Assembly: GCF_000948985.2 (NCBI RefSeq)
Contig: NZ_CP059734.1
Span: 806,001 to 870,000, forward strand
Direction: 5' to 3'
DNA: 64,000 bases
DNA from: Thalassomonas viridans
Lineage (GTDB): Bacteria > Pseudomonadota > Gammaproteobacteria > Enterobacterales > Alteromonadaceae
Positions 17,501 to 45,124 of this stretch are shown in pieces. The notes below the pieces were generated by a model. It saw only the letters and a list, made by a program, of their open reading frames with translations. It did not search any database and was not told where the DNA came from. Numbering within the stretch: the stretch's first letter is position 1; each line of letters starts with the position of its first letter. Made by a program: the position numbers and the translations under genes.

Positions 17501-17643
17501 GACTGCTGGCAAAGCATGTAGTAAAGCTTAAAGAAGGGGCAATTCACGATACCAATCAACGTACTATAGATCTTTTAACTAATAGTGAGGTGAGTTTGGC
17601 GAAAGCTCATCATTATAGTTGCTCGGAAAGTCAGTTTCTGTAG
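14578..17643 (+). pseudogene. 3' part of large effector, lipase-like (GHSLGG)
   Basis: This fragment encodes residues of the disrupted effector after the IS3 element; the original coding sequence resumes at 14571 and the intact protein would have about 1182 residues. As it stands only a TTG at 14578 without a clear ribosome binding site could start it. The N-terminal half is helical and charged. Near the middle KINISGHSLGGGF gives the Ser nucleophile elbow of class 3 lipases/phospholipases (codon 16426-16428, residue 778 of the restored protein), preceded by GTTGIVADMYY as a possible oxyanion strand. The C-terminal 400 residues are helical. A CesT-like chaperone gene follows 52 bases later. 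Likely an injected lipid hydrolase, now inactivated. The acid and His of the triad cannot be assigned. Confidence 0.82.
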
Positions 17644-28396: not shown

Positions 28397-29542
28397 ATGA
28401 CCACTTGGTATTTAAGGGTTTTAACCGGGCCACAAAAAAATGCGGAAATAGAGCTAGAGCCCGGCAGTCAATATCTAGGCGCCGGTAACGACTGCGATGT
28501 TATTCTGCAAAGTGATGATATTCAAGATAAGCATTTTGAATTAACCCTGGAGGAAGAGAAGCTAACGCTGACCAACCTGGTTGAGACTTGTTTTTTGCAA
28601 AATGGTACGGAAAGTCCAGACAAGTGTATTTCATTGAATCATGGGGATTACATTTGTGTTGGTGACTTGGTTTTAGGTTTTGCAAGTGCTGAATACGAAT
28701 GGCCGGAATCGGTGTTGGCGGCGGACGTGTCGGCAGAGGGCGGTAACAAAGCGGATGACGATGACTGGGGGATGTTTTCCAGTGAAGCCGATGAAAGCGA
28801 AGATGAAGACGAAATAGAAGAGCTTGTTGCGCCGCCGAAAAAAGGCTTAACCACAGCAAGGTTAGCTTTTGCCGCAAGTGTTGTGTTCTGCAGTACGGTG
28901 GCGGCGGCAGGCATTGCTATTAAGCAGGCAAATGTCAAGGCTGAGCAACTTGCTTTTTTCGATCCCGAAAGCCTGCGCAATGAACTGGCTAAACAGTTTC
29001 CCAAAGCTAGGTTGACGCTTGCCCGGGAAGACGAGCAGCATCCCTGGCAGCTCACCGGCTATTCGGCCAGCACCGCTGATTTTCGGGAGCTTTCCGCCTG
29101 GCTTGAACATACCTATCCTAAAGTTGTTAACCGGGTGATTAGTCAGGAGCTGTTGATAAGTTCAACGCAACAGGCGCTTCAGGCCCTGGGGTTTTCTGAA
29201 ATTAAGGCTATAAGTACCGACAAAGCGGGTGTACTTGCGTTAACCGGGGAAATAAAACGGCCAACAAAATGGCAAAAGGCGTTTCATACATTACAGCGTG
29301 ATATTGCCGGGGTTAGTGCCTGGCAAGATCAGACAGAAGACAAGCGCTGGCTGCCTAAGCCAGATATTCAGGTTGATAGTGTAAACATAGGCGAGTCGCC
29401 ATTTTTGCTGACCCGCAACGGTAAATCTATTTATGAAGGAGATCTTATTGATGGCTTATTTACCGTTGAAAAAGTCGCGCTTGACTACGTAATCATGAAT
29501 TTTCGTGATCAAAAAATAAAGTATATGGTGAGTGATTTATAG
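28397..29542 (+). CDS. sctD: T3SS inner-membrane ring protein SctD (FHA-type)
   Basis: A 381-residue protein. The N-terminal FHA domain (WYLRVLTGPQKNAEIELEPGSQYLGAGNDCDVILQSDDIQDKHFEL) keeps the fold. A strongly acidic linker follows (DDDDWGMFSSEADESEDEDEIEE, about residues 120-145), then one membrane helix (ARLAFAASVVFCSTVAAAGIAI, about 155-176) and periplasmic ring-building repeats. It forms the outer of the two inner-membrane rings and its FHA part holds the cytoplasmic sorting platform through SctK. The 25-base gap to sctC suggests one transcript. Confidence 0.93.
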   Translation: MTTWYLRVLTGPQKNAEIELEPGSQYLGAGNDCDVILQSDDIQDKHFELTLEEEKLTLTNLVETCFLQNGTESPDKCISLNHGDYICVGDLVLGFASAEYEWPESVLAADVSAEGGNKADDDDWGMFSSEADESEDEDEIEELVAPPKKGLTTARLAFAASVVFCSTVAAAGIAIKQANVKAEQLAFFDPESLRNELAKQFPKARLTLAREDEQHPWQLTGYSASTADFRELSAWLEHTYPKVVNRVISQELLISSTQQALQALGFSEIKAISTDKAGVLALTGEIKRPTKWQKAFHTLQRDIAGVSAWQDQTEDKRWLPKPDIQVDSVNIGESPFLLTRNGKSIYEGDLIDGLFTVEKVALDYVIMNFRDQKIKYMVSDL

Positions 29543-30292: not shown

Positions 30293-30970
30293 ATGCTTTC
30301 GATTATTAAATTAGAAAATGGCTCTCTGGAAAGCAAGCCTTCGGGCAATTTGCTTAAACATGAAGATTATCGTGCTTATATGGCTCACCGGGATGTAGAA
30401 GCCTACAGTAAGCAACGGGCTAAGAAGCGTTATAAGTCGGTAGACGCGCTGGTAGAGGAAGAGCGTAGCAAGGGTTATCAGGCAGGACTAAAGGCGGGAG
30501 AAAAAGAGGCCGCCAGTAAAGTATTAGCACTGAACTTAAGCGCCATTGCTTATCTAAAGGCTTTTGAACAGCAGGCCGGTGAAATTATTCAAGATGCTTT
30601 ACAACGTATTCTTGGCGAAATGGACCAGGATACGCTCATTCAATCGTTGGTAGGAACGGCAATTAAAGCTGTTGAGACGGAACAACAGATAAAAATTATT
30701 GTTTCTTATCATGATGTTAAGGCGGTAAAAGCTCGGGTGGAACATTGGCTTGAACAATATCCGAATATTGAACGCATTAATGTGATTGCCGATAACCAAA
30801 TGGCGGCCAAATCCTGCCGGCTTGAAACGCCGATAGGGGTGGTTGATGCAGGCTTGCAGACCCAACTTAAGGCTTTAAGAATGTCTATGGAGTCTGTATT
30901 TGGGGTGCCAGAGGAACCTGAAGAAAGACAAAACAGCAGTTTTACCGATATTGAAACCATAACCGATTAA
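30293..30970 (+). CDS. sctL: T3SS stator protein SctL
   Basis: A 225-residue protein of the HrpE/YscL/FliH family. It is the elongated stator linking the SctN hexamer to SctQ/SctK and dampening ATPase activity. Seen: a charged N-terminus, a coiled coil EEERSKGYQAGLKAGEKEAASK (the G-x-x-x-G-type helix of FliH), then ALQRILGEMDQDTLIQSLVGTAIKAV and a C-terminal domain with IERINVIADNQMAAKSCRLETPIGVVDAGLQTQLKAL. That last stretch is a hallmark of YscL-type proteins. GGAAGAG stands before the ATG. Confidence 0.92.
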   Translation: MLSIIKLENGSLESKPSGNLLKHEDYRAYMAHRDVEAYSKQRAKKRYKSVDALVEEERSKGYQAGLKAGEKEAASKVLALNLSAIAYLKAFEQQAGEIIQDALQRILGEMDQDTLIQSLVGTAIKAVETEQQIKIIVSYHDVKAVKARVEHWLEQYPNIERINVIADNQMAAKSCRLETPIGVVDAGLQTQLKALRMSMESVFGVPEEPEERQNSSFTDIETITD

Positions 30971-31881: not shown

Positions 31882-32490
31882 ATGATCGATTATATAGCGA
31901 CATTTATTTTATTTTTTGCGGTGATAGACCCGATAGGAACAATACCCGTTTTTATTGCCGTTACCCACACATTCGATAAAAAAACAAAAAGGAAAATAGC
32001 CCTGCAGGCAGCGGCCGTTTCGTCTGTTATATTGATTTTTTTTATCATTGCCGGAGAAATGATTTTAACTTCGATAAATGTTCCTCTTGCCTCTTTTCAG
32101 ATTGCCGGGGGAATTGTGTTATTCTTGTTCGCACTTACCATGATCTTCGGACAAAGCAAGCCAGAAGAAGAGTTAAACAGCATTAACAGTCATAATGAAA
32201 CTGCTATTTTCCCATTAGCTATTCCCTCGATAGCCAGCCCGGGGGCAATGTTGGCGGCTGTTTTAATGACAAAGAACAATGAACATTCCGTAATGGAACA
32301 AGTGCAAACGACAGGCATTATGATGGCGGTTATTGTTATTGTTTTCTTCTTTATGTTGGTTGCAAGTTCTATACATCGTTTTATTGGCAATTCCGGGGCA
32401 AGTATTATTAGCAGGGTAATGGGGCTGATACTAACCTCGGTTGCCGTGAATAATATTTTGCAGGGAATTAAAGTGTCGTTCTCTATTTAA
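31882..32490 (+). CDS. MarC-family integral membrane protein
   Basis: A 202-residue membrane protein with about six helices. Seen: FFAVIDPIGTIPVFIAVTHTF, the conserved start of the MarC/YchE/YhgN family, then LASFQIAGGIVLFLFALTMIFG, PLAIPSIASPGAMLAAVLM and a last helix pair IISRVMGLILTSVAVNNILQGI. The function of this family is still unknown (older links to multiple antibiotic resistance were withdrawn). Not related to the T3SS. Housekeeping-like gene on its own between two accessory blocks. Confidence 0.93.
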   Translation: MIDYIATFILFFAVIDPIGTIPVFIAVTHTFDKKTKRKIALQAAAVSSVILIFFIIAGEMILTSINVPLASFQIAGGIVLFLFALTMIFGQSKPEEELNSINSHNETAIFPLAIPSIASPGAMLAAVLMTKNNEHSVMEQVQTTGIMMAVIVIVFFFMLVASSIHRFIGNSGASIISRVMGLILTSVAVNNILQGIKVSFSI

Positions 32491-32516
32491 CCTGAACTCG
32501 GGTTAATCTAAACCAG

Positions 32517-32618
32517 CCAGCGCCGCGCTTTTAATGGTTCTCGGCGTTAAACTTGCTTCTAATAGCCCGCTATTCGTGCGCAAGTTTGCCTTGATAACCA
32601 TTAAAATCGCAGCACTGG
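32517..32618. repeat. 102-bp nested palindrome
   Basis: The outer arms are 23 bp with 20 matches and include TTTTAATGGTT with AACCATTAAAA. Inside are AAACTTGC with GCAAGTTT, and AATAGC with GCTATT around a CC centre. The transcript could fold into one long branched or rod-like hairpin. It may be a MITE or REP-like element or a structured RNA. No second copy was seen in the window. Confidence 0.7.
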
Positions 32619-33304
32619 TGCCATGATGAATAACTATTATGTATTAAATGAAGAGTATAATGGTTAAGTCATTGTTATTTAGGCATTAGCTGGCTCATCT
32701 TAACCCGATTTCAGGTTATTTAATGCAATATTCGTTATGGTAATGTCTTGTTCCCATGTTTTGATGAATCGTGCTGTTTATTCCTGCGTTTGTGCCGTTA
32801 ATAGTCTGCACGTACCCTGGCCTTAAAATCAAAGCTTTCATGTCTGTTTGCCCCATCATGTAGTCAACATGACTACTCCTGTTCGGCTATATAAAATTGA
32901 TATCAGGTGTTCTGGTATAGAGTATATGTTCTTTACCGGCAGGAGTCATTTACGCCTTAACTTTTGGGCATACAGTACTGAGTAAGTGTGTCCATTCAAA
33001 TTATTGCTGTTTAACACTTCTTCACTATACGTCCGCTTTAGTTAAAGTTTGTTTGCCGTACCTTTGGCTTCCATTTGGGGCAGCTGCTGTTTTGAGTGAT
33101 ACCTTATTGCTCTTTGTCGGAGTCTATTTTTGGTTAACCTCTTAACTTGCTAACAAATTGTTACAGTTAAGAAGTGTGAGGGCTCTGCTAGCACTAACAA
33201 GTCTTTAGGCCTTTATATTTAGGCTCTATATTGGGAGAACAGCCTAAAAAAGCTTTGGTTTTTATCTGAGAATAACAGCCGGTTTGTGACTTTCCGCTTG
33301 AGAA

Positions 33305-33401
33305 ATAAACAGTTTTATTTTCTTCGTTTCAAAATGATTGAGCATTTATTGAGTTCAATAAATGTTTTAAACCATAAATATTAATTATTAAGGGTATCAA
33401 T
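33305..33401 (+). promoter_or_regulatory. Leader shared with the 39631 gene
   Basis: ATAAACAGTTTTATTTTCTT, then CGTTTC, and later GTTTTAAACCATAA recur with few changes at 39536-39610, at the same distance from the start codon. Conservation of upstream DNA between two flanking paralogues suggests a common promoter or operator. Confidence 0.65.
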
Positions 33402-33806
33402 ATGAATACTGAGAAGCCTAAATTAAATATGACTAAGAAAAACGCTTATCTCCTAAGTTCTGTGTTAGGTGTAATGACCTTACTAGCATCGGGTTCGTCT
33501 TTGGCTGCTTCTGCTATGGATGAACGGTTAGGAGGTCAAGTAAACCCATTTTTACATATTAGCGGAGGGGCGTTTCCACTAAAAGAAGTGGGTATTTCAC
33601 CAATAATGGCAGAGTCAACTCGTTTTAAAATAAATGATGCTGCGAAGACCTCACCATTGATGGTCGAACCAAAGCCGGCATTTGCAGCCTACTCTATGCC
33701 AGCATTTGCAGCCTATTCAGATCAAATAGATCGGAATCAAAGTGTAACGAAAAAGAAGAAAAAGAAGAAAAAGAATAAAAGAAGAAATAGAAGAAATAGA
33801 GGATAA
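33402..33806 (+). CDS. Small secreted basic protein, putative export substrate
   Basis: A 134-residue precursor. Seen: an N-terminal signal KKNAYLLSSVLGVMTLLASGSSLAAS (cleavage probably after SLAA), a central tandem repeat PAFAAYSMPAFAAYSDQ, and a C-terminal tail of almost pure Lys/Arg/Asn (KKKKKKKKNKRRNRRNRG). AAGGGTATC lies before the ATG. Its signal region and leader DNA match the gene at 39631. It is the first gene of the ABC exporter cluster, and the strongly cationic tail is like antimicrobial or nucleic-acid/lipid-binding peptides. No modifying enzyme is encoded nearby. I know of no family for it. Confidence 0.7.
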   Translation: MNTEKPKLNMTKKNAYLLSSVLGVMTLLASGSSLAASAMDERLGGQVNPFLHISGGAFPLKEVGISPIMAESTRFKINDAAKTSPLMVEPKPAFAAYSMPAFAAYSDQIDRNQSVTKKKKKKKKNKRRNRRNRG

Positions 33807-33987
33807 AACGATTAAAACAGCAGGAACGTAACTTCTACAATACTATCGTTCGTGCAAGTTAAATTGTTTTTATATGTTATGTGTTGATTTTATTTGGTGC
33901 ATAACTTGTCGTAAGTATAGTGGTTACAGGGTTTAGTTACCCCTTAATCTCTCATGTAACTTCTTTACTTACGGCTGCTATTTCACC

Positions 33988-34734
33988 ATGGCTGCTTTTG
34001 ATAAAAACAATATGTCTGGACGTGAACGCATAAGGACGTACAGTAAAGTGATTCAAATAAAGAAATTAAATCGGGTATATGGTCACGGTGAATCCAGGAT
34101 ACATGCGCTTGCCAATGTTTCACTGGTCATTGAAAAAAATGAATTTATTGCCATCATGGGCGCTTCTGGTTCAGGAAAATCTACCTTGATGAACATCTTA
34201 GGTTGTTTGGATACTCCTAGTTCCGGTGAATATTTATTGTCAAATAAATCGGTTATAAATATTGACGATTATCAATTATCAAAAATACGCCATGAAAAAA
34301 TTGGTTTTATCTTTCAAACCTTCCATCTGTTATTACGCCTGACAGCCCTAGACAATGTGCTCCTGCCCCTGCGCTACAGTGGGCTTAGTGTTGAGCAGGC
34401 AAGACAAAGAGGGTTGGAAATGCTGAATAAGGTAGGGTTATCTGCTAGGGTCCATCATAAACCTTATGAAATGTCCGGTGGGCAGAGACAAAGGGTCGCT
34501 ATTGCCCGGGCTCTTGTGAATCGTCCCCAAGTTATCTTTGCTGATGAACCTACTGGTAACCTGGATAGTAAAACATCGCAGGAAATCATGCAGTTGTTGT
34601 TGGAGTTGCATCGTGGGGGGCAAACCATAGTGATGGTCACCCATGAAGAAGCTATTGCTGCTTATGCTCAGCGGATAATTAAAATGAAAGACGGCCTGAT
34701 TATTGAGGATAAGCCATGCATCGATTTCTGTTAG
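33988..34734 (+). CDS. ABC transporter ATP-binding protein, MacB/LolD-type
   Basis: A 248-residue ATPase. Seen: Walker A GASGSGKST (58-66), Q-loop FIFQTFHLL, signature MSGGQRQR (162-169), Walker B VIFADEPTG (182-190) and the H-loop VTHEEAIAAY. The L-L-P-L-R-Y segment after the Q-loop is typical of the MacB/LolD/FtsE group, which pairs with FtsX-like permeases. It pairs with the permease at 38112. Its end overlaps the first adaptor gene. The start is uncertain: the ATG at 33988 lacks a ribosome binding site and the ATG at 34012 is possible. Confidence 0.92.
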   Translation: MAAFDKNNMSGRERIRTYSKVIQIKKLNRVYGHGESRIHALANVSLVIEKNEFIAIMGASGSGKSTLMNILGCLDTPSSGEYLLSNKSVINIDDYQLSKIRHEKIGFIFQTFHLLLRLTALDNVLLPLRYSGLSVEQARQRGLEMLNKVGLSARVHHKPYEMSGGQRQRVAIARALVNRPQVIFADEPTGNLDSKTSQEIMQLLLELHRGGQTIVMVTHEEAIAAYAQRIIKMKDGLIIEDKPCIDFC

Positions 34735-35681
34735 TTATGTATTTGCTGATTTTTATTTTGTTTATTGTGCCTGTAAAAGCCTGGGGAATTCTACTTACCG
34801 GTCAGTTACAAGCCAATGACAGCCAAACTTTTTACTCTCCAAAAACAGATAGTTGGCAGGTACAGGTACAGTGGATTTTTCCTGAAGGAAAAGTTGCTCA
34901 AAAAGGAGATTTAGTGGTTGTTTTTGATAGCGGCGATATCCAAACAAGGCTCGATCAGGAAAAAGTTAATTTGATTGATGCCGAGGAGGAACTAAGTCGC
35001 ATAATGAATATTGGTGAGCATGAGATACTCACGGCCAGTTATGGAGTCAAGAAAGAACAACTAAGGTTAGAAAAAGCCCGTCTCTATGCCGATATTCCCC
35101 AGAAACATCTTAGTAATTATGATTATGAAAAGAATCAGCTAATCGAAAATGAGCAGCGGGTAGCCTATGTTCAGGCACAAGATTTGTTAAAGCAGGCAGA
35201 AGTTGCTCATGCAGCAGCTATCGCTAAACAGAAGTTAATAATAGCCCGGCATCAAGACATTCTGGTTTATTGGCAAAGGAAGTTGGATAAAATGAGTCTT
35301 TATGCCAAACGCTCTGGTCCGGTACTTTATGCTTATCACCCTTGGAACGGTGAAAAGGTTTTTGTCGGTATGATTGCGCAGTCGGCCTGGGCTATTGCTG
35401 AAATCCCTTCACTGAATGAGCTTTATATAGAAGCCTGGGTTCATGAAATTGATTATAACCAGCTGAAAATAGGGCAAACACTACAGTTAACTTTTGATGC
35501 TTTTCCCGAAATAAAACTGGAGGCCACAACCAGTGAATTGTCAACTCAGCCTCAGGAACGTAAAGAGTGGGGCAGCGATGCTTATTTTCGAGCGGCATTT
35601 ACTTTTTCTGATAATGAACAATTACCTCTGCTGCCAGGAATGAGTGCCCAGCTGGAATTAGCACCAAATGCAATACAATAA
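34716..35681 (+). CDS. Periplasmic adaptor 1, HlyD/MacA-like
   Basis: A 321-residue adaptor with an N-terminal hydrophobic signal or anchor (FLLVMYLLIFILFIVPVKAWG). Seen: a lipoyl-like half (EGKVAQKGDLVVVFDSGDIQTRL), a long alpha-hairpin (about 85-190), the second lipoyl half (MSLYAKRSGPVLYAYHPWNGEKVFVG) and a beta-barrel (LYIEAWVHEIDYNQLKIGQTLQLTFDAFP). No lipobox. It overlaps the ATPase gene by 19 bases. It is the first of three adaptors in a row. Confidence 0.85.
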   Translation: MHRFLLVMYLLIFILFIVPVKAWGILLTGQLQANDSQTFYSPKTDSWQVQVQWIFPEGKVAQKGDLVVVFDSGDIQTRLDQEKVNLIDAEEELSRIMNIGEHEILTASYGVKKEQLRLEKARLYADIPQKHLSNYDYEKNQLIENEQRVAYVQAQDLLKQAEVAHAAAIAKQKLIIARHQDILVYWQRKLDKMSLYAKRSGPVLYAYHPWNGEKVFVGMIAQSAWAIAEIPSLNELYIEAWVHEIDYNQLKIGQTLQLTFDAFPEIKLEATTSELSTQPQERKEWGSDAYFRAAFTFSDNEQLPLLPGMSAQLELAPNAIQ

Positions 35682-35694
35682 GAGGAGAAAGGCT

Positions 35695-36858
35695 GTGGAT
35701 AAGGTACTTTTCGTCATTTTCTCCTGTAGTTTGCTGGCAGCTTGTATTAATGAGTCTACGATTGAGCGGGTTAAACGAGAAAACCTGGAAATCTTGGTAA
35801 ATGCCAACGGAGAGTTGGAGTCTGCTTTAGTAAGCCTGATCACCCCTCCTTCTGTCAGCAATATGTGGCAATACAAAATCAAACACCTAGTCGAAGAGAA
35901 TACTCAGGTAAGCCAGGGACAGATAGTGGTATCTTTTGATGATCAAGAGCTTAGCGAGCATTTGATAGAGAAGGAGGCTGATCTTGAGCGGGCTAAAAAG
36001 GTACTAAAGAACCAAAAGCTCAGGGAAGCTGAGGTTGAAGAGGAGTTGACGCTGCAGGTAGCTCAAATGCAAATGGAGTACGATAAAGCCAGGCGTAGAG
36101 CTGAGATCATAGATCACTCCCTATCTGAACTCGACAGAAAAGAAGCACAAATTGAGCTCGCCATAGCGGAAAATGAACTAGCTCTGACTAAAGAGCAATG
36201 GCTTTATCAGCAGAAGAGTAAAGCACTCAACATTAAACAGGCACAGGATAAGGTAAGCCGGCTAATGTCTGAGGTGGAAGAGCTCTTCAATGACATTGAA
36301 AAGCTCAAAGTGAAAGCTCCCCGTGATGGCATGGTGGTATATAAAACTAACTGGAAAGGGGAAAAGCCTGCGGTAGGTGAAACAATGCAATTTGGCCAGC
36401 GAGTAATGGAGATTGCTGATTTAGCACAAATGCAACTCATTGCACAGATAAATGAATTTGATAGTGGCAGGGTTGCCGTGGGCCAAGTGGTAAAGGTTTA
36501 TTTAGGTAGCACGCAGGAGTTGATAATTTACGGCCGGGTACAAAGTTTAGGAAAGGTTTTTCGTGATCGGTCTTATCAGGACAAACGGCGCGTTTTTGAT
36601 GTGGTTGTTGATTTTGACCAAACGGACGACGGGATAATGCGCCCGGGTATGACGGCACGGGTGGAGGTCGTTACTGAAACCCTGGACAATGTCTTAACCA
36701 TGCCCCGGCAGGCTGTGAAAAACGTAGGTGGCGAGAATATAGCCATAAAAAGCACTTCAATGGCAAATACAGACGAAGTGATCTCTGTTAGCCATGTGCT
36801 GGATACTAAAGTGGTGATTGCTAAAGGGTTGGCGGCAGGAGATGAAGTAATGTTATGA
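35695..36858 (+). CDS. Periplasmic adaptor 2, lipoprotein, HlyD/MacA-like
   Basis: A 387-residue adaptor. The GTG at 35695 follows AGGAG at 7 bases and gives a lipoprotein signal VDKVLFVIFSCSLLAAC with lipobox LLAAC; an ATG at 35668 lies inside the previous gene. Seen: lipoyl half (ENTQVSQGQIVVSFDDQELSEHL), a long coiled-coil hairpin (about 85-200), KVKAPRDGMVVYKTNWKGEKPAVGE and a beta-barrel (LIAQINEFDSGRVAVGQVVKVYLG), then MRPGMTARVEVV. The layout is that of RND/MacA adaptor proteins. Confidence 0.88.
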   Translation: MDKVLFVIFSCSLLAACINESTIERVKRENLEILVNANGELESALVSLITPPSVSNMWQYKIKHLVEENTQVSQGQIVVSFDDQELSEHLIEKEADLERAKKVLKNQKLREAEVEEELTLQVAQMQMEYDKARRRAEIIDHSLSELDRKEAQIELAIAENELALTKEQWLYQQKSKALNIKQAQDKVSRLMSEVEELFNDIEKLKVKAPRDGMVVYKTNWKGEKPAVGETMQFGQRVMEIADLAQMQLIAQINEFDSGRVAVGQVVKVYLGSTQELIIYGRVQSLGKVFRDRSYQDKRRVFDVVVDFDQTDDGIMRPGMTARVEVVTETLDNVLTMPRQAVKNVGGENIAIKSTSMANTDEVISVSHVLDTKVVIAKGLAAGDEVML

Positions 36859-38111
36859 ACATACTTTTATTGACAGGAAAACACAATGGCTTGGCGAAGG
36901 TACTCATACAGGTAAAGGGGACTGTCTTTATATCGCTTTTAACTGCTTTACTACTATTCACACTAATGGGGTGCGGTCAAAGCCAGAAGGCACCCAATCT
37001 GTACCAGGTAAAAAAACAACGATTTGAGATAAAAATCCCAGCTTTTGGGGAGTTGTTTGCAGCTAAAGCTACCGTGATCAGTGCGCCGGCCAGTGGTCAT
37101 GGTTCCCAAAACCTTGCCTGGCTTGCCCCTGAATACGCCAGAGTAAAAAAGGGAGATATTATTGCCCGTTTTGACGGAGAAGTGATGGACGTACAGCGTT
37201 CATTAGAGCAGATTGAAATATCTCTTACCGAACAGGACCTCGAAGAAAATTATTTCTCGTTGGCTTTGGAATTAAATGCCATTAACCAAGAGATAAATAT
37301 GATACATAGAGAAGCTAACTTTGCGAAGCGATTTTCTATCGACGATGTGCGTATTCGCTCCAGGCTGGAGATCCTGGACGCATCTGAAAATAGTGACTTC
37401 CTTGAGGCTAAGCTGCATTACCTGAAATGGAAAAAAGCGAGCTTTGAGCAAACTTCCCTGGGCGATATTGACTTATTGAAAATGAAGCATATCCAGAGCA
37501 CTCGCAAGATTGCTCAGCTGAAAAAGGATTTGTCTATGCTGGAAATAAAAGCTCCCCATGAAGGACTGCTGATATACAGTGCCGACTGGCGAGGCGAAAA
37601 ACCTAAGGAGGGTAAATTATTATGGCCAGGGCAAAAGATGGCTGAATTGCCGGATGTCAGTAAAATGAAAGCTAAGCTTTTTGTTTTTGAACATGAAGCC
37701 TCAGGTTTAGCGCCCGGCCAGAAGGTGGAACTGAATTTATATGCTTTTAGTAAACTACCTTTTAGCGGTGTCGTTGAAACTGTAGCGTCGTTCCCTGCTT
37801 CTATTAAGCGTGCGGATCCACAAAAGTATTTTGAGGTTGTTGTTACTTTGGACAAGCAGCAAACCGAGCTGTTTGTACCCGGACGAAAACTTACCGCAAG
37901 TATAAGTGTAACTGAGCCTGTAGAAAAAATTGTTGTGCCCCGGCAAAGTCTTTTTAGTGAGGATAATAAACCTTATGTCTATCTGTTTAACAATGGCGAA
38001 TATTACCGTCAGTATGTAACCCTGGGACAGTCAAGCTTAAGTCATGTTGAAGTTATGTCGGGTCTGGCTGAAAACCAGCAAATAGCGCTGATAAAGGTAG
38101 AGGGGAGCTAA
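36855..38111 (+). CDS. Periplasmic adaptor 3, lipoprotein, HlyD/MacA-like
   Basis: A 418-residue adaptor whose ATG overlaps the stop of adaptor 2 (ATGA). A hydrophobic signal (FISLLTALLLFTLMGC) ends in the lipobox LMGC. Seen: lipoyl half (EYARVKKGDIIARFDGEVMDVQRSL), coiled-coil hairpin, EIKAPHEGLLIYSADWRGEKPKEGK, barrel domain and membrane-proximal domain (VPRQSLFSEDNKPYVYLFNNGEYYRQYVTLG). The RGEKPKEG / KGEKPAVG / NGEKVFVG stretch at the second lipoyl half is shared by all three adaptors, so they arose by duplication. Confidence 0.88.
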   Translation: MNILLLTGKHNGLAKVLIQVKGTVFISLLTALLLFTLMGCGQSQKAPNLYQVKKQRFEIKIPAFGELFAAKATVISAPASGHGSQNLAWLAPEYARVKKGDIIARFDGEVMDVQRSLEQIEISLTEQDLEENYFSLALELNAINQEINMIHREANFAKRFSIDDVRIRSRLEILDASENSDFLEAKLHYLKWKKASFEQTSLGDIDLLKMKHIQSTRKIAQLKKDLSMLEIKAPHEGLLIYSADWRGEKPKEGKLLWPGQKMAELPDVSKMKAKLFVFEHEASGLAPGQKVELNLYAFSKLPFSGVVETVASFPASIKRADPQKYFEVVVTLDKQQTELFVPGRKLTASISVTEPVEKIVVPRQSLFSEDNKPYVYLFNNGEYYRQYVTLGQSSLSHVEVMSGLAENQQIALIKVEGS

Positions 38112-39347
38112 ATGAAGTACATGGCCATTTGGCTCGATACACTGACCGAACTTTCTCAGCATAAACTCAGAACACTTCTGACCTTGTTGGGCATGATTTT
38201 CGGTGTAGGTGCGGTGGTTGCCATGCTTAACATTGGAGAAGGGGCTGAACGTGAAGCGCTAAGTATGATAGACAGTATGGGGTTGCGCAATTTAATAGTG
38301 AGTAGCAAGCCTTTTAATACAAATCAATTGACCGAGCAACGCAAACATTCAAGGGGGCTGACTTTACGTGACGGTAAAGTCGGGCTTGACGCTTTACCAT
38401 TTGTTGATGCCTTCAGTGCTCAGAAAACTATAACCACTTACAGTATTTTCAGCGCTAAGGGAAAAAGTGACGGTGATGCCTTGGGGGTCACGGCAAGTTT
38501 TTTCGAACTCTCTAAGTTTTCTTTGTATCAGGGGCGTTATTTGAATACAGATGATGAACAGAGGTTTGCTCAGGTAGTCGTACTGGGGTCATCAAGTGCT
38601 AAACAGTTATTTCCTCTGGGTAATGCTTTGGGTCAGAATGTTAAAATCAATCACCTATGGTTTAAAGTCGTGGGGGTGTTGGAAGCACCATTTCTTAAAA
38701 AAGAAGAGTTTCAAGGCATTAAACTTGGTAGTGAACAAAATCAGGTATTTATTCCATTAAGTACCGCCATCCACAAGTTTCCTTCAACATTCCTGGCCAG
38801 CGAAGTCAATAGCCTGAAATTTGAGGTAGATGAAAGTATTGATCCAATAGAAGCTGCTAAGGCGGTAAACCATTTGCTTAGTCGCCGTCACAATAACGTG
38901 GACGATTTTAATATTATTATACCTGCCGCCTTATTGGCGCAACAAAAACAAACTCAGCAGATTTTCAATATTGTAATGTCTTGCGTTGCCGGTATTTCTT
39001 TACTGGTAGGCGGAATAGGCATTATGAATATTATGTTGGCAACGGTACTGGAGCGTACCAGGGAAATAGGCCTGCTTAGAGCTGTAGGAGCGACACAAAA
39101 GGACATTCTACTGCAATTTGTCGCTGAGAGTTTTACTATCTCTATTTTAGGTGGCCTGCTTGGTGTACTGTTTGGTATTTTATTGTCTGAGCTTATAGCA
39201 CTTTACGCTCAGTGGGCCGTTTATTGGTCTTTAAATGCCATTGTTTTATCTTTTAGTATTTGCGCTATGACAGGCATAATATTTGGTGTATACCCGGCGA
39301 TAAAAGCATCAAAGTTAGATCCTATGGATGCCTTGCAAAGCGATTAG
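38112..39347 (+). CDS. ABC transporter permease, MacB/FtsX-like
   Basis: A 411-residue permease. Seen: an N-terminal helix (KLRTLLTLLGMIFGVGAVVAMLNIGEGAE), a large periplasmic domain of about 230 residues, and three C-terminal helices (IVMSCVAGISLLVGGIGIMNIMLATVLERTREIGLLRAVGATQ, then FTISILGGLLGVLFGILLSELIAL and IVLSFSICAMTGIIFGVYPAIKASKLDPMDALQ). This is the four-helix MacB topology without a fused ATPase. It starts directly after adaptor 3 with GGGAG before the ATG. With the ATPase and adaptors it should form a trans-periplasmic mechanotransmission exporter. Confidence 0.93.
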   Translation: MKYMAIWLDTLTELSQHKLRTLLTLLGMIFGVGAVVAMLNIGEGAEREALSMIDSMGLRNLIVSSKPFNTNQLTEQRKHSRGLTLRDGKVGLDALPFVDAFSAQKTITTYSIFSAKGKSDGDALGVTASFFELSKFSLYQGRYLNTDDEQRFAQVVVLGSSSAKQLFPLGNALGQNVKINHLWFKVVGVLEAPFLKKEEFQGIKLGSEQNQVFIPLSTAIHKFPSTFLASEVNSLKFEVDESIDPIEAAKAVNHLLSRRHNNVDDFNIIIPAALLAQQKQTQQIFNIVMSCVAGISLLVGGIGIMNIMLATVLERTREIGLLRAVGATQKDILLQFVAESFTISILGGLLGVLFGILLSELIALYAQWAVYWSLNAIVLSFSICAMTGIIFGVYPAIKASKLDPMDALQSD

Positions 39348-39535
39348 TAACCAAGAGGTTATTGCCGGCTTGTTTGAATGAGGTAAAATGCTCAGGGTCA
39401 CTCACCTATTTTTAGACATTGGTTAGTCTATATTGTTTGCCAGTATTTGCGTTAAAGAATGCGCTATATTCATTCTCTTCGTTTAAATTTTATTATCTCC
39501 TTTTGTGGCCGTAGCTCGTTTAAATTGTACAACAG

Positions 39536-39630
39536 ATAAACAGTTTTATTTTCTTGGTTTCCAAAGAGATAAGCGTATATTTTATCTTAAATATTGTTTT
39601 AAACCATAATAAATGGCTAAGGGGACTCAC
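39536..39630 (+). promoter_or_regulatory. Leader shared with the 33402 gene
   Basis: ATAAACAGTTTTATTTTCTT then GGTTTCCAAA, and GTTTTAAACCATAA at the far end, match 33305-33390. The middle is diverged, so the two ends are likely the functional parts. It precedes the second paralogous small secreted protein. Confidence 0.65.
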
Positions 39631-39954
39631 ATGAATATTAATAAATATAAATTAAATACAGTTAAGAATAACTCATTGGTTCTAAGTACTATGTTAGGAG
39701 CAATGACGGTACTGGCTTCGGGATCGGCCTTTGCAGACAAATTAAAGGAGCCTTCTTTGTCCTTGTTGAAAGCTAGGGAGGTGAACCGGATAAAGCAAGG
39801 AAGTCTAGCTGTTTCACAAGATATGCTTATAAGAGGGAAGCAATTTTTGGTTGTTCAGCCTTTAGGAGGGGAGCCTCAAAAGGCTATAAGGTTCATATCG
39901 CCGGTTGAGTCCCCTAACAGAAACCGAATTATGAAAAAATTGAAGCAGATGTAG
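39631..39954 (+). CDS. Second small secreted basic protein
   Basis: A 107-residue precursor whose signal KNNSLVLSTMLGAMTVLASGSAFADK is a clear paralogue of that at 33402 (LSSVLGVMTLLASGSSLAA). The mature part is different in sequence but also basic (LKAREVNRIKQG, ESPNRNRIMKKLKQM). The ATG at 39631 has AAGGGG upstream; an ATG at 39613 is less likely. It closes the exporter cluster. A plausible export substrate; no known family. Confidence 0.7.
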   Translation: MNINKYKLNTVKNNSLVLSTMLGAMTVLASGSAFADKLKEPSLSLLKAREVNRIKQGSLAVSQDMLIRGKQFLVVQPLGGEPQKAIRFISPVESPNRNRIMKKLKQM

Positions 39955-40213
39955 TATATAAGGTTGCTTGCAAAAGGCTGCTTGGTAGAAGTTTTGTATA
40001 TGGCAATGCTCGCCAATATTATGAGCCCCGTGGTAATTTCAGCTTTTCTTACTGTAGACTATTCACCCGCGTAATGATGGTTTAGCAGTCATGAAAAGTT
40101 AGGCTACAGGGGCTAAAAACTTATGGTCTGTGATTTAGGGGGCAGTTTTTAGTGGAGTCGCTATATTACGAAAGTAGTATTCAGCGAAAAATTTTGCTGG
40201 ATATTAGTGTTTG

Positions 40214-40426
40214 TCAAATCTTGAAGTGAACGAGTGTTTTAATTTCTTTATCCCGGCGCAGCAGACCGTTTTTTATAGCAAAATCTTTTAAGCATGCAGC
40301 TGTACTGAAGTCCAGCTTTAATTCACGTTGTATTTCTACAATATCGAATCGGTTGTAAAAATCCGGATGACTTTTCAATGCCTTTAATGCTTCAAGATCT
40401 TTTTGTTCAAATAGTTTTATTGACAT
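40214..40426 (-). CDS. Small hypothetical protein
   Basis: A 70-residue charged, helical protein (MSIKLFEQKDLEALKALKSH ... RFDIVEIQRELKLDFSTAACLKDFAIKNGLLRRD). The middle could form a winged helix-turn-helix (IVEIQRELKLDFSTAACLKDFAIKNGLL). AGAG precedes the ATG at 40426. If real it could be a small DNA-binding regulator between the exporter and curli clusters. Low certainty. Confidence 0.4.
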   Translation of the reverse strand: MSIKLFEQKDLEALKALKSHPDFYNRFDIVEIQRELKLDFSTAACLKDFAIKNGLLRRDKEIKTLVHFKI

Positions 40427-41140
40427 AATCACACTCTTTTAATAACGGAGTTTCGAATTTTTATTACCTGAATAGCCACTAAAGCATGTGAAACTGAATG
40501 GGGTATTTTGTTTATTTACACCGTGACTTTGTTGATTTTCGTGAATTCAGTAACGGCCTGGCGGTGACTGTCGGGTTGTAGATACAATCATCGCGGTTTA
40601 GCTGCATCATTTTTATATTGTTGGAAAATAAAGAAGAACCAGGTGATTTAAGCGGATGCGCTATATTGCAGGTTGTAATTTGGATATCGATAGTAACTGC
40701 ACCGGTGAGCAGTGAAACCGTTTGTTTATAGACTGCTGCTGGTTATTTCCAAACATCGGCAATGGTGCTAAGACCGGTGCTACTCGGTATAGCACCGTAG
40801 AAACAGTTAAAGCGAACGGGGAGCGCTTTTCAATTATCTTGTGTATTTGCATTGCCTGAAGTCATCGGTTTGTAAGGAAGTAGACATTGATGCGCTGCTG
40901 TTATGGCATAGAAGATTAGCTCGGCATTATTTGGGGTTATAAATAGAGATAGTATCCTGTATTTGCTTCGGGCAGACTAGAGGGCCTGTTTCTCTTTGGC
41001 CGTGAATGATCTTTTTGGCTGTTTTTACCCCTGTCGGTGTTAGAAAAATGTCATGTAGAACAACAACACATCCATTTTTCTGCCTTGATAGGGATAAAAA
41101 CCGCTCAAAAATCTCCATCCCCTCCAAAGATAAAAAAGCC
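40427..41140. other. Gene-free stretch with repeat copy B
   Basis: Frames here lack ribosome binding sites and domains. The right part is occupied by the minus-strand dispersed repeat (about 40935-41145). Confidence 0.4.
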
Positions 41141-41145
41141 CTAAT
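40935..41145 (-). repeat. Dispersed intergenic repeat, copy B
   Basis: Minus-strand copy of the repeat at 11263-11450. Shared blocks in the same order: ATTAGGG, TATCTTTGGAGGGGATGGAG, ATTTTTGAGCGGTTTTTA, TTTTCTAACACCGACAGGGG, AAAAACAGCCAAAAAG and AAACAGGCCCT. It carries an insertion of about 20 bases relative to copy A. It ends within a few bases of the minor curlin stop codon. Confidence 0.65.
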
Positions 41146-41599
41146 GTTGACTTATTTTGACAGTCATTTCGTCACCCCATTGGGTAAGTCTTAGGCTTTC
41201 ATTGCCATACTGACGGATTATGGCGTTATTGGCATCACCAAATTGATGGATGTCAGCGAAATTACCGTTATTTTCCTGAAAAATATCTGCCTGGTTTTCT
41301 GTCCCCTCTTGTTGTAAGTTAATATGGTTATTATCACCATGCTGATGAATGATGATGTTGTTATTTTTATTTTCGATTTGATTGATTGCTACTTTGTTGA
41401 AATTGCCCTTTTGCTTGAGTTCAAGCGATTGTTTTGCCATGGCTATGGCTGATGAGGTAGATAAACTGCGGGATAATGGCGATTCCTGTAAGTCTGGTGA
41501 AGCACTTTTCACCGGGCAGCTGAATAAAGTTGCCCACATAAAAATTTCTATCATCACAGTATCAACTCGTCTCTTTTGCTGTTGTCTTTGTAATTTCAT
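41141..41599 (-). CDS. csgB: Curlin-repeat minor subunit, CsgB-like
   Basis: A 152-residue protein with an N-terminal hydrophobic signal region (DTVMIEIFMWATLFSCPVKSAS) followed by curlin-type repeats of about 22 residues with the N-x-Q/N-x-[IV]-x-Q-x-G-x-x-N pattern: NKVAINQIENKNNNIIIHQHGDNNHINLQQEGTENQADIFQENNGNFADIHQFGDANNAIIRQYG and a last ESLRLTQWGD. Such repeats form the amyloid core. It is divergent from the main curli genes and shorter than the 42400 gene, as expected for the nucleator CsgB, but the A/B assignment is uncertain. AGAGG stands before the ATG. Confidence 0.8.
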   Translation of the reverse strand: MKLQRQQQKRRVDTVMIEIFMWATLFSCPVKSASPDLQESPLSRSLSTSSAIAMAKQSLELKQKGNFNKVAINQIENKNNNIIIHQHGDNNHINLQQEGTENQADIFQENNGNFADIHQFGDANNAIIRQYGNESLRLTQWGDEMTVKISQH

Positions 41600-41979
41600 T
41601 TTAGTACCTCTGGTAAATGCCTATGTCTGCAGCCGCTTGATCATCTCAAGCATTATTTGGGGGAGGTTTCATCAATTTTTTTTCAGCGAAACGAGCGGCC
41701 GATAGCAAACGGGTTAACTGCTTACCCATAACCGGTTATCGCGGGGATCGTAAAACGTGCCCCTCACCCCCTCCAAAGACCGGCAGTCCCTGACAAACCA
41801 GTGAAGTTATCCATATTTAAACCCGAAGAATATTTCTTAGTGGCGGAAGATTACTTTTTGTTGCTTGAAGGCAATACATTGGCGGCATTTTCCCGCCGAT
41901 TTATTTATCTTGGGTCAATAAAACAGAGTGCTTTGGTTGGGTTTACCTTAACTAAGACTGGATATTTTTATTAGGTGGC
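41600..41979. promoter_or_regulatory. Divergent curli control region
   Basis: 380 bases between the divergent minor curlin and the small secreted protein gene. It holds a fourth copy of the CTTTGGAGGG motif (41765-41793, minus orientation: GGGACTGCCGGTCTTTGGAG then GGGG). Curli genes are usually controlled from such a divergent region by CsgD-like regulators; no csgD is seen in the window. Confidence 0.45.
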
Positions 41980-42246
41980 TTGCCAGACTCACTAATAGCA
42001 ATAATCTTGTATGCATCATTGCTTTTAAGCTTCCTGTTTGGTTTGCACAAAACCGTAAGTTGCAACATAACCGGTTTTATTCATCACTCTGGCATTGGTT
42101 TTATTGCCGGCAATGCCATTGATTTGGAGGTTAGTCTGGGTCTACGGGCAAATGAGTCTAATCATTTGGCGTTGTTACTTAAAAGCCATCAGGGTTTGAA
42201 GCGATATTATCAACAGAGTAGTAAAAATAGTTTTAAAAACATTTGA
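41980..42246 (+). CDS. Small secreted protein in curli locus
   Basis: An 88-residue protein from a TTG start (AGGTGG immediately upstream). Seen: an N-terminal hydrophobic segment (SLIAIILYASLLLSFLFGLH), then SCNITGFIHHSGIGFIAGNAIDLEVSLGLRANESNHLALLLKSHQGLKRYYQQ. No internal Met. The place in a curli locus would suit a periplasmic curli-inhibiting protein such as CsgC or CsgH, but I see no shared motif beyond size and export, and the start is weak. Confidence 0.4.
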   Translation: MPDSLIAIILYASLLLSFLFGLHKTVSCNITGFIHHSGIGFIAGNAIDLEVSLGLRANESNHLALLLKSHQGLKRYYQQSSKNSFKNI

Positions 42247-42334
42247 TCCTCAACAGGTTCTTAATTGATGGAAAAATACTGTAAGTCTTTACTGAATAGT
42301 GGAGGTTTACAGTGCAAAGGAATGAAAATAAAAC

Positions 42335-42361
42335 CAGCCAGTATAGGGTAAGTACTGGCTG
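42335..42361 (+). promoter_or_regulatory. Hairpin in the curlin leader
   Basis: CAGCCAGTA and TACTGGCTG are perfect 9-bp arms around TAGGGTAAG, 39 bases before the curlin ATG. It could end the upstream transcript or shape the curlin mRNA leader. Confidence 0.5.
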
Positions 42362-42399
42362 ACTATTAATAAACATAAATCGAAAAATTGGAGAAATAC

Positions 42400-43320
42400 A
42401 TGAAACTCAATAAAACATTATCGGCCGGTACCGTGATGATGGCGCTGGGGGTGACTCAAGCAGCCTTTGCTAATGAAAATGTTATTTTGGCTCAAATTGG
42501 ACCTACTAATTTTGCGACCATACATCAGTCAGAAGAGTCTGCTGTGAATGGCGCGACAACTATTGAAGTGGCGCAGCTATCGTACGGAGAAGGTAACTTA
42601 ACAGATATTAGGCTAGATAAAAGTAACCAAGCCGCGATTGTTGTTGAACAGAAAGGTGATGGGAATATAGCATTGCTTCAAGTTGGCTTGGTGGAACAAA
42701 GTGATAGCAACAATATTATAGTAGGACAAGAGGGGGATCAAAATAAATTGGAGGGGATGTTTGAAGGTGGAGGTAATACATTATCACTTTATCAGCTTGA
42801 TGGCTCTCAGGATAACACGTTAATTCTTGTTGGTATCGGCCAAGGCAATACGATAAACCTTTCTCAGCTTGAAGGCTCTCAAGTTAACATGCTGACGCTG
42901 ATGGGATTTGGTTCTGACAATCAGGTAGATATTCTTCAAGGGGAAAATGAAAACAATGTGGAAGTTAGTTTATTTGGAGACTCAAATAATATTGCCATTT
43001 CTCAGGACGGAGAACAGGGTAACAACTTGGTGAATATTACTATTGTGGGACATGACCATAATATAGATATTTCTCAGGACGGAAGTGGAAATCAGATCAG
43101 GGGGATGGAAGAGGGAGCTACTTTGCTTGTTGAGGCCGACAGCTTAGTCTTGGACATCTTACAATCGGGCAATGACAATATTTTTGAGGGTGAAAACTTT
43201 AACTCAAGCAATGTCATTGATGTTACTCAGGACGGTATAAATAATTATGCTGCAGTTACGCAGGGATTTACAGGGACAATTGGAGGGGTGGAGGTGATTG
43301 AACCTGCCATCCCTCAGTAG
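42400..43320 (+). CDS. csgA: Major curlin, CsgA-like amyloid subunit
   Basis: A 306-residue secreted protein, twice the length of E. coli CsgA (about 150). The signal is KLNKTLSAGTVMMALGVTQAAFA. The mature part is built of irregular 20-25-residue repeats with strand-turn-strand pattern and Gln/Asn ladder, for example DGNIALLQVG, NTLSLYQLDGSQDNTLILVG, GNTINLSQLEGSQVNMLTLMG, NNIAISQDGEQGNNLVNITIVGHDHNIDISQDGSGN and NVIDVTQDGINNYAAVTQG. Overall it is very acidic. The ATG at 42400 is chosen because the signal peptide starts there; an ATG at 42388 adds four residues. It is followed by csgE, F and G. Confidence 0.85.
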   Translation: MKLNKTLSAGTVMMALGVTQAAFANENVILAQIGPTNFATIHQSEESAVNGATTIEVAQLSYGEGNLTDIRLDKSNQAAIVVEQKGDGNIALLQVGLVEQSDSNNIIVGQEGDQNKLEGMFEGGGNTLSLYQLDGSQDNTLILVGIGQGNTINLSQLEGSQVNMLTLMGFGSDNQVDILQGENENNVEVSLFGDSNNIAISQDGEQGNNLVNITIVGHDHNIDISQDGSGNQIRGMEEGATLLVEADSLVLDILQSGNDNIFEGENFNSSNVIDVTQDGINNYAAVTQGFTGTIGGVEVIEPAIPQ

Positions 43321-43397
43321 TCGTCCTGATATAAGAATTGCGACGAGTCCATGTGAGCAACGGGATGCTATATCCCGTTGATGTTGTAGAAGTTTTC

Positions 43398-43808
43398 ATG
43401 ATGATGCAATGCTTTATGCTATATACCAGATTAATTTCTCTGTTATTACTGCTGCTGATCGTTTTTCCGGTGGCAGTATTTGCCCGAGACGTGGAAATAG
43501 ACGGGTTATATCTTAATAACAGCAAAACCCGGCAAGGCCATGAGTTTGCTTATCAATTTGGCTTGTTATGGCAGGAAATGCCTAACACTCAAGGCATCAA
43601 TGTACAAATAACCGAGCAAATTGTACCGCATGCCGGCACTAAGCTGACCTTGCTGATGAACCATAAGCTTGTTTATGTTACTTATCTTGGCCGTCGGCGT
43701 TCACCCATGAAAAATAAAGTGGAGCAGGCGATTTTTGCTTTGATTGATGCTATGGCACAGGCGAAACTAAACCGGAGAACTCCGGATATGGCAGAGAATG
43801 GCTGGTAA
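43398..43808 (+). CDS. csgE: Curli assembly protein CsgE
   Basis: A 136-residue periplasmic protein, the specificity factor that caps the CsgG pore. Signal: LYTRLISLLLLLLIVFPVAVFA. Mature: RDVEIDGLYLNNSKTRQGHEFAYQFGLLWQEM, IQITEQ-type IVPHAGTKLTLLMNHKLVYVTYLGRRRSPMKNKVEQA. These match the CsgE hallmarks (E-I-x-G-L, D/KTRxGxxFY and the W... segment). The ATG at 43398 opens a run of three Met; longer frames upstream are unlikely. Confidence 0.9.
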   Translation: MMMQCFMLYTRLISLLLLLLIVFPVAVFARDVEIDGLYLNNSKTRQGHEFAYQFGLLWQEMPNTQGINVQITEQIVPHAGTKLTLLMNHKLVYVTYLGRRRSPMKNKVEQAIFALIDAMAQAKLNRRTPDMAENGW

Positions 43809-43853
43809 TTAGCTAAAAATGGCAAACCAATGATAAAGAATAAGGTCACTATA

Positions 43854-44330
43854 ATGCGTGTTGAGAAAGTTATGTTAATAAAAATAATAAAAGTTCCGTT
43901 TTTTATACTAGCGACTCAGCTTTTGCTGGCGTTGCCTGCATTCGCGAGTGAACTGGTTTATCAGCCAATTAATCCCAGTTTTGGCGGTAATCCGATAAAC
44001 GGCAGTTATTTGCTGAATAAAGCGCAGGCGCAAAATAAACATAAAGCACCGGCAAGGGCCAGAAGATCTTATACCGAGAGATTCCAGGAATCTCTGGAGC
44101 GCTCCTACATCAATAAAATGGTCAGATTACTCACAGATCAAGCCTTTGGTACCGGAGATATTGCCTTGGCTGAAGATGCTCTTTTTGTTAGTGGTGATTA
44201 TGAAGTGCTGGTGACCGGCAGCAACTCCGATAGTATCAGCGTACAAATTTCCAATACCGAGACCGGTGAAGTTACCCTGATTGAAGTACCGCGTTATGAT
44301 CTGGGAGCTGGTGAGGTATCACTGCCATGA
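43854..44330 (+). CDS. csgF: Curli assembly protein CsgF
   Basis: A 158-residue protein with signal (VPFFILATQLLLALPAFAS) and the mature N-terminus ELVYQPINPSFGGNPINGSYLLNKAQAQN, an almost textbook CsgF start that docks in the CsgG channel. The rest (SYTERFQESLERSYINKMVRLL, then YEVLVTGSNSDSISVQISNTETGEVTLIEVPRY) is typical too. CsgF holds CsgB at the outer face. AAGG precedes the ATG at 43854; 43830 and 43872 are alternative starts. Its stop overlaps the csgG start. Confidence 0.93.
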   Translation: MRVEKVMLIKIIKVPFFILATQLLLALPAFASELVYQPINPSFGGNPINGSYLLNKAQAQNKHKAPARARRSYTERFQESLERSYINKMVRLLTDQAFGTGDIALAEDALFVSGDYEVLVTGSNSDSISVQISNTETGEVTLIEVPRYDLGAGEVSLP

Positions 44331-45124
44331 ATAAATATTTACAAGTTCTATTTGCGTTAAGTGTTATGGTACTAGTGCCCTCGTGTGGCAGTGTGGGGAA
44401 ATTTGTAATACCGGCACAAACTCAGGCGGTAAAGATATTGCCGACTCAAACTTTTAAAGAGCTTAAGGCCCTGCCTCGGCCTAAGGGACCTATTCCTGTG
44501 TCTGTTTATGCCTTTAGAGATCAAACAGGACAGTACAAACAACAGGCTAATGTCAGCTCTTTTTCTACTGCCGTTACCCAGGGAAGCACTTCAATTTTAA
44601 TGCAGGCACTCAGCGACTCCCAGTGGTTTTTACCGGTAGAGCGGGAAGGTTTGCAGAATATTCTTACCGAGCGGAAAATCACCCGGGCAGGAAACCAAGG
44701 CGATAACAGCGTTGGCACTGGCGACACCTTACCGCCGCTGACTACCGGGAAAATATTACTGGAAGGAGGAATTATCAGTTATGACAGCAATATTCGCACC
44801 GGTGGCTTTGGCGCCGAATATTTTGGTATCAGTGCCTCTGATCTGTACAGAGAAGATCAGATCTCGGTGACTATGCGCGCCGTGGACGTGCGCACCGGCC
44901 AGGTGCTGGTGTCGGTATCCACCACGAAGAATGTATTAAGTAAAGAAGTACGTGCCGGCTTTTTCCGTTATATCAGTTTTAAGCGCTTGGCGGAAGCTGA
45001 AGCGGGTTATACCAGTAATGAACCTATGTTTATTTGCGTGAAACAAACTATTGAAAAGGCCATTACCGAATTAGTGCTTAAAGGCATAGAAAAGGGGGTT
45101 TGGCAAGCACAGGAGAGTGTTTAA
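44327..45124 (+). CDS. csgG: Curli secretion channel CsgG
   Basis: A 265-residue outer-membrane lipoprotein that forms the nonameric curli pore. Signal with lipobox VLVPSC. Seen: PRPKGPIPVSVYAFRDQTGQYKQQANVSSFSTAVTQGSTSILMQAL, WFLPVEREGLQNILTERKI and GGIISYDSNIRTGGFGAEYFGISASDLYREDQISVTMRAVDVRTGQVLVSV, all strongly conserved in CsgG. The length is as in E. coli (277). It is the last gene of the curli operon; its start overlaps csgF (ATGA). It meets a minus-strand gene 26 bases later. Confidence 0.96.
   Translation: MNKYLQVLFALSVMVLVPSCGSVGKFVIPAQTQAVKILPTQTFKELKALPRPKGPIPVSVYAFRDQTGQYKQQANVSSFSTAVTQGSTSILMQALSDSQWFLPVEREGLQNILTERKITRAGNQGDNSVGTGDTLPPLTTGKILLEGGIISYDSNIRTGGFGAEYFGISASDLYREDQISVTMRAVDVRTGQVLVSVSTTKNVLSKEVRAGFFRYISFKRLAEAEAGYTSNEPMFICVKQTIEKAITELVLKGIEKGVWQAQESV

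Follow-up and report, generated by a model that had tools for sequence, protein, structure and literature searches.

A MacB-type exporter with three adaptors in Thalassomonas viridans and two paralogous small proteins as possible cargo of its second copy

We analyzed a 64,000-nucleotide stretch of the Thalassomonas viridans genome (contig NZ_CP059734.1, positions 806,001 to 870,000; hereafter the window), in which genes for an ATP-binding cassette (ABC) ATPase, three adaptors, and a permease lie between the genes of two small proteins, SP1 and SP2. Judged by its sequence, the five-gene unit is a MacB-type (Type VII) ABC exporter of a lineage-specific, three-adaptor variant. The genome has a second, chromosomal copy of this unit, called the core copy below, and the one in the window is called the second copy. 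As the most likely explanation, although a tentative one, we propose that the second copy moves Sec-delivered SP1 and SP2 out of the periplasm. The open reading frames (ORFs) of the initial annotation were all present in the order and on the strand it gave, namely SP1, ABC ATPase, adaptors 1 to 3, permease, and SP2 on the plus strand at 33402-39954. The features were as follows.

33305..33401, plus strand: SP1 leader, with the box ATAAACAGTTTTATTTTCTTCGTTTC and a 5' region common to the SP2 leader (DNA alignment, box search)
33402..33806, plus strand: SP1, a 134-residue orphan protein with a PAFAAYS tandem and a K/R-rich C terminus (ORF; predicted Sec signal peptide)
33988..34734, plus strand: ABC ATPase, MacB/LolD-like (ORF, profiles, motifs)
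34716..35681, plus strand: adaptor 1, HlyD/MacA-like, with a signal peptide and no lipobox seen (profiles, AlphaFold2 model)
35668..36858, plus strand: adaptor 2, HlyD/MacA-like, a predicted lipoprotein (LAAC) (profiles, translation)
36855..38111, plus strand: adaptor 3, the most MacA-like of the three, with a lipobox-like LMGC (profiles, translation)
38112..39347, plus strand: MacB-type permease with a periplasmic core domain and four hydrophobic segments (profiles, hydrophobicity)
39536..39630, plus strand: SP2 leader, with the sole other genomic copy of the box and the 5' region (DNA alignment, box search)
39631..39954, plus strand: SP2, a 107-residue orphan protein with a signal peptide homologous to that of SP1 (ORF, alignment)

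The profile searches agreed with the earlier description of an ABC exporter with a MacB-like ATPase and three HlyD-type adaptors. In Pfam and NCBIfam, the ATPase matched ABC_tran, with MacB/LolD-like best models, the adaptors matched HlyD_3/HlyD_D23, and the permease matched MacB_PCD and FtsX. The ATPase motifs (Walker A, Q-loop, signature, Walker B, and H-loop) were all intact, and the ATPase of the core copy begins near residue 20 of the window ATPase ORF. The permease profile matched MacB structures across positions 3-410 of 411, and its four hydrophobic regions bear out the four-helix MacB permease described before. The unit thus resembles MacAB-TolC in a permease that matches MacB over its full length and in adaptors that match MacA. 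In contrast to canonical MacAB, the ATPase is not fused to the permease, the two being separate ORFs, and three paralogous adaptors stand in place of a single one.

Next, we examined the adaptors. Each matched MacA or EmrA structures in profile comparison, and the mutual profile matches (E-values of 9e-44 for adaptors 1 and 2, 6e-55 for 2 and 3, and 3e-29 for 1 and 3) indicate that the three are related through duplication. The profile matches to MacA extend to different points, ending at MacA residues 300, 309, and 362 for adaptors 1, 2, and 3, respectively, which makes the adaptors look non-equivalent. An AlphaFold2 model of adaptor 1 alone (predicted local distance difference test score, pLDDT, 92.4) contained a long helical hairpin at residues 73-192, with helices at 73-125 and 134-192. 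The lipobox-like sites in adaptors 2 and 3 are in line with the two lipoprotein adaptors proposed earlier. A W-x-G-E-K motif was found in 35/81, 27/81, and 51/82 sequences of adaptors 1, 2, and 3, respectively, and was not used. The RLS motif, which we take to be a channel-docking motif, was present in 16/81, 15/81, and 1/82 and was uninformative.

Among species-representative genomes, 191 permease relatives were confirmed by scanning, and the best 80 of the 191 were fetched and examined. The ATPase, adaptors 1, 2, and 3, and the permease occurred in the same order in 79 of these 80; the exception (L027) begins inside adaptor 3, cut by the contig end. The core copy of T. viridans itself makes the eightieth complete set. 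These relatives rule out an exporter unique to the T. viridans genome. They span Thalassomonas, Colwellia, Pseudoalteromonas, Glaciecola, and relatives, including one Shewanella (L084), and the closest named one among the best 80 is Thalassomonas sp. RHCl1 (L005), which coincides in the tree with L124, one of the other three genomes of the genus. The median intergenic gaps along the five genes were -7, -8, -4, and -1 bases. A lipobox was seen in adaptors 1, 2, and 3 at 6, 63, and 73 of 80 loci, respectively, with start codons assigned by rule. In four Glaciecola loci from metagenome-assembled genomes (L060:5817-7769, L065:5829-7745, L066:5838-7739, and L068:5835-7748), a single open frame of 633-650 residues spans adaptors 1 and 2, so that the three adaptors there are two proteins. 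Such an apparent natural fusion is what one expects if the two adaptors work in the same complex.

In an even sample of 147 family genomes, our own included, the permease (E up to 1e-110) was found in 46 genomes and in 23 of 52 genera. Counted by permease, each of the 46 had one copy except T. viridans, which had two. Among 274 genomes sampled across the class, six others were detected with the profile of adaptor 1 at an E-value of 1e-12. Four of the six (L139, L140, L142, and L144) carried one adaptor next to one permease; no permease match was seen in L143, and L141 consists of a 3.2-kb contig. The single adaptor in the readable distant relatives makes the three-adaptor arrangement look lineage-specific. 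No description of the three-adaptor exporter was found in the open-access literature (a library without most subscription journals), and within that literature the system remains a candidate undescribed one, as in the initial annotation. The split of ATPase and permease by itself is already known from the LitOPAI system.

MacB-type pumps are modelled with a dimeric permease, six identical adaptors arranged as a ring, and a channel. For the exporter described here, a mixed six-part adaptor ring is plausible. A precedent is TriABC-OpmH, a resistance-nodulation-division (RND) pump that needs two different adaptors, according to the accessible parts of PMC8277102 and PMC4338810, and the adaptor 1-2 fusions give the mixed ring some support. 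As described there, TriABC-OpmH likewise has paralogous adaptors encoded together in a single operon, but it is an RND pump with two adaptors, whereas the present exporter is an ABC system with three. A widespread relative with three distinct adaptors raises the question of the role of each ring position and offers a way to test mixed rings within the ABC class.

The core copy is located at C1:1937359-1942619 (L121:9360-14620), whereas the window is on contig C2 (1,218,661 bases), the second replicon of the two-contig, 7.95-Mb genome. The other three genomes of the genus carried one copy each, as judged by adaptor 3. In a tree of adaptors 2 and 3 and the permease, the second copy was on a long branch, sister to all Thalassomonas core copies, which places the duplication, or a gain from a near relative, before the sampled genus members. 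The window-to-core branch ratio was 2.2 for the permease, 2.9-3.1 for the adaptors, and 7.9 for the ATPase, whose core branch is very short. Among columns invariant in 14 outgroup loci, 6-12 per gene were changed in the window copy only, compared with 0-2 in the core copy only. The codon differences of the permease at positions 1, 2, and 3 numbered 67, 25, and 230, and the exporter frames were intact. The pattern agrees with a working copy whose constraint has changed or relaxed.

The two small proteins share a signal peptide and leader DNA and differ in their basic mature parts, as first noted in the initial annotation, and the PAFAAYS tandem and the C-terminal Lys/Arg run of SP1 were also found again. 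The leader and signal-peptide DNA aligned over approximately 200 bp with a local score of 124, against a maximum of 33 in 200 shuffled pairs. The likeness begins at the box, approximately 95 bases upstream of the start, and stops after the signal peptide; the mature parts are unrelated, since 147 of 1,000 shuffles reached the same score. The 24-nucleotide leader box had exactly two sites in the 7.95-Mb genome at up to three mismatches (none for a reversed-pattern control), and both directly bracket the second exporter copy in the same orientation. The two small proteins are thus true paralogs. Across the 35 signal-peptide codons that align, 9, 6, and 15 differences fall at positions 1, 2, and 3, and the third-position excess leans towards coding. 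The SP2 start was corrected from 39613 to 39631, which follows AAGGGG and matches the SP1 start; the database gene model likewise has 107 residues. Both genes are present as called genes in the protein collection.

SP1 and SP2 are predicted Sec-type precursors without a lipobox. With signal cleavage judged by the A-X-A rule only, the mature part of SP1 has 99 residues (isoelectric point [pI] 10.6, 21 K/R against 8 D/E) and begins with Ala, and that of SP2 has 72 residues (pI 10.8, 15 K/R against 6 D/E) and begins with Asp; neither contains Cys. Neither protein matched a Pfam or NCBIfam family, and in a search of approximately 5.8 billion proteins, the only matches were the genes of the window itself. 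Weak SP2 matches (E up to 1) occurred in 20 of 58 other genomes, the best with an E-value of 0.004 and none convincing. SP1 had a single match (G064, E-value of 9e-4) in 146 other family genomes at E up to 0.01, which shares the reading frame of an ABC ATPase ORF and is spurious. In SP1, a purine-rich tract at 33742-33802 with a periodicity of approximately nine bases encodes the Lys/Arg run, and the length of this tract might vary through slippage.

By analogy with known systems, we infer export of SP1 and SP2, a mixed adaptor ring, and a TolC-type partner. In the proposed scheme, the two proteins would cross the inner membrane via Sec and lose their signal peptides, and the permease-adaptor assembly would take them up from the periplasm. 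The separate ATPase would bind ATP, and the signal would pass via the permease helices to the periplasmic domain, thereby driving the cargo through the mixed ring, plausibly a hexamer with two of each adaptor, into a channel of the TolC type whose gene lies elsewhere. The place of action of the basic mature proteins would be at or beyond the cell surface; the neighboring type III secretion and curli genes suggest surface or host contact. The accessible part of PMC5985334 describes MacAB-TolC as exporting the Sec-delivered enterotoxin STII from the periplasm, with MacB acting by mechanotransmission on periplasmic substrates. The present system would be similar in having a small Sec-delivered protein substrate. 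According to the accessible part of PMC7943197, the Aat system exports the Sec-delivered Aap (dispersin) or CexE, and the substrate gene can adjoin the operon. SP1 and SP2, which flank a MacB-type exporter and combine predicted Sec signals with basic mature parts, fit the scheme of STII, Aap, and CexE as these sources describe it.

Several results weigh against export of SP1 and SP2 by the second copy. Conservation of the small proteins with the exporter, on which the initial annotation had made their link depend, was not found: no convincing small basic secreted gene was present within 1.5 kb of the exporter in 80 other loci. A rule-based scan flagged 4/81 loci, the window among them; by eye, the other three were a short membrane protein (L016), an apparent out-of-frame ORF (L061), and a multi-helix membrane protein (L078). 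A looser scan gave larger or non-basic secreted-looking neighbors (e.g., L048, L058, L063, L072, and L084), which vary among loci, and neighbor genes in general were not conserved, the most widespread neighbor cluster occurring at 16/79 loci. The small proteins are thus ruled out as a defining mark of the exporter family. The ancestral substrate would be something else, and SP1 and SP2 could be substrates of the second copy only. For that copy, a diverged duplicate found only here among the genomes searched, the result is indecisive. The two orphans have no homologues to reveal co-inheritance. SP2 has its own leader, so that it is only a possible member of the operon, and no outer-membrane channel gene lies within the operon, although the genome has 12 TolC-family (OEP) ORFs. 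The mature-part codon scores were -0.034 for SP1 and 0.026 for SP2, higher than most non-coding sequence yet within its range. As controls, real-gene windows (n = 55, drawn from the training genes) had a 5th percentile of 0.043, out-of-frame windows (n = 275) a 95th percentile of -0.045, and intergenic windows (n = 132) a median of -0.105 and a 95th percentile of 0.045. Because both scores fall below the 5th percentile of real genes and the 95th percentile of intergenic sequence, the reality of SP1 and SP2 as proteins is insecure. Finally, the faster evolution of the second copy fits relaxed constraint as well.

The main rival, almost as likely, is coincidence: the second copy would keep an ancestral substrate (a small molecule, a lipid, or an incoming antimicrobial peptide), and SP1 and SP2 would be independent orphan secreted or periplasmic proteins, chance neighbors sharing a promoter cassette. 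The exporter occurs elsewhere without such neighbors and each small gene has a leader of its own, as this explanation expects, and the accessory look of the region, with two transposase/integrase-type ORFs in the window, makes a chance juxtaposition plausible. Against it, the cassette has just two copies in 7.95 Mb, and these flank precisely the second exporter copy. It is improbable, in our view, that SP1 and SP2 are orphan ORFs of little function, whether young, poorly expressed, or decaying, beside an exporter copy drifting to loss. Their orphan status, the repeat tract in SP1, mature-part codon scores no better than the upper intergenic range, and the excess of changed outgroup-invariant sites in the window copy are consistent with decay. 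However, the exporter frames and ATPase motifs are intact, the leader and signal peptide were kept alike while the mature parts diverged, the signal-codon differences lean to the third position, and both ORFs are called as genes in the protein collection.

We consider it quite improbable that SP1 and SP2 are periplasmic partners of the exporter, docking on the adaptors or tethering it to peptidoglycan or lipopolysaccharide, instead of substrates. Their signal peptides and same-strand flanking positions would suit such a role, and a four-component MacB-type system, YknWXYZ, is named in the title of a reference. However, without an equivalent at the other copies, these partners would be peculiar to the second copy, and paralogs with unrelated mature parts are unexpected of a single docking part. 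Returning to export of SP1 and SP2, we regard the link between the small proteins and the exporter as a working hypothesis, a reasonable guess resting on one genome. A more elaborate version, in which the duplicated exporter became a dedicated two-step secretion system for paired fast-evolving cationic proteins in an accessory type III/curli region, with an asymmetric three-adaptor ring, appears unlikely. If the second copy exports SP1 and SP2, it would represent a further secretion route, one with a convenient reporter, and an example in which new secreted proteins accompanied the duplication of an exporter.

In addition, we compared the unit with other known systems. The LitOPAI system of Legionella pneumophila is, in the accessible part of PMC11559062, a split Type VII exporter with a separate MacB-type ATPase and permease and a MacA-like adaptor, all of which it has in common with the present exporter. 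In contrast, the LitOPAI cluster of that account has a single adaptor and includes the gene of an outer-membrane channel. The Aat system, as described in the accessible part of PMC7943197, also has a split MacB/Lol-type ATPase and permease plus an adaptor; it differs in having one adaptor, and no AatA-like gene is in the operon here. Aat substrates carry an N-terminal Gly after cleavage, whereas SP1 and SP2 are predicted to begin with Ala and Asp, and membership in the Aat system was rejected. No Pfam match to an AatD-like acyltransferase was found among the 40 window ORFs scanned, the rest of the genome not being searched. The unit showed a moderate profile likeness to DarD and a weak one to DarC of the darobactin exporter; membership was rejected because the scores were below the curated cut-offs (232.6 of 375 bits for DarD and 23.7 of 450 for DarC). 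In the accessible part of a review of Shewanella siderophores (PMC8891985), S. oneidensis is listed with a fused 656-residue MacB only.

The exporter unit is enclosed by a type III secretion region at 8603-58703 with SctV-, N-, C-, D-, L-, P-, Q-, R-, T-, and U-like genes, the Sct names being our interpretation of Pfam families. On the left are SctV-like (8603-10765), SctN-like (24754-26079, minus strand), secretin (26885-28372), SctD-like (28397-29542), and SctL-like (30293-30970) genes and a MarC-type gene (31882-32490). On the right, the curli span (41141-45124) comprises curlin-repeat genes at 41141-41599 (minus strand) and 42388-43320, followed by CsgE, CsgF, and CsgG. Beyond it are SctP-, SctQ-, SctR-, SctT-, and SctU-like genes, an SseC-type protein, and a CesT-type chaperone. 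In three other members of the genus, the curlin-repeat gene at 42388 (310 residues) had no match at E up to 1e-10 and the MarC-type gene none at E up to 1e-30, so the region looks accessory on these two tested flanking genes. A literature listing for Thalassomonas and type III secretion gave no paper on the subject, as judged by its titles. Rfam at gathering scores gave no match in 32500-42400, and a tRNA scan of the whole window gave none. Promoter and terminator predictions in 33000-40300 (9 and 8, against shuffle means of 14.7 and 6.8) were not in excess.

Large ORFs without a Pfam family are located at 924-2957 (678 residues) and 14578-17640 (1,021 residues). Inside the type III region, the two transposase/integrase-type ORFs (rve and DDE_3) are at 13336-14148 and 19882-20922 on the minus strand, and a SET-domain protein of 393 residues (6794-7975, minus strand) adjoins the type III genes. 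Just outside the window start, a TolC-family ORF of 488 residues (C2:804566-805795) is the nearest outer-membrane channel gene found to the second exporter copy.

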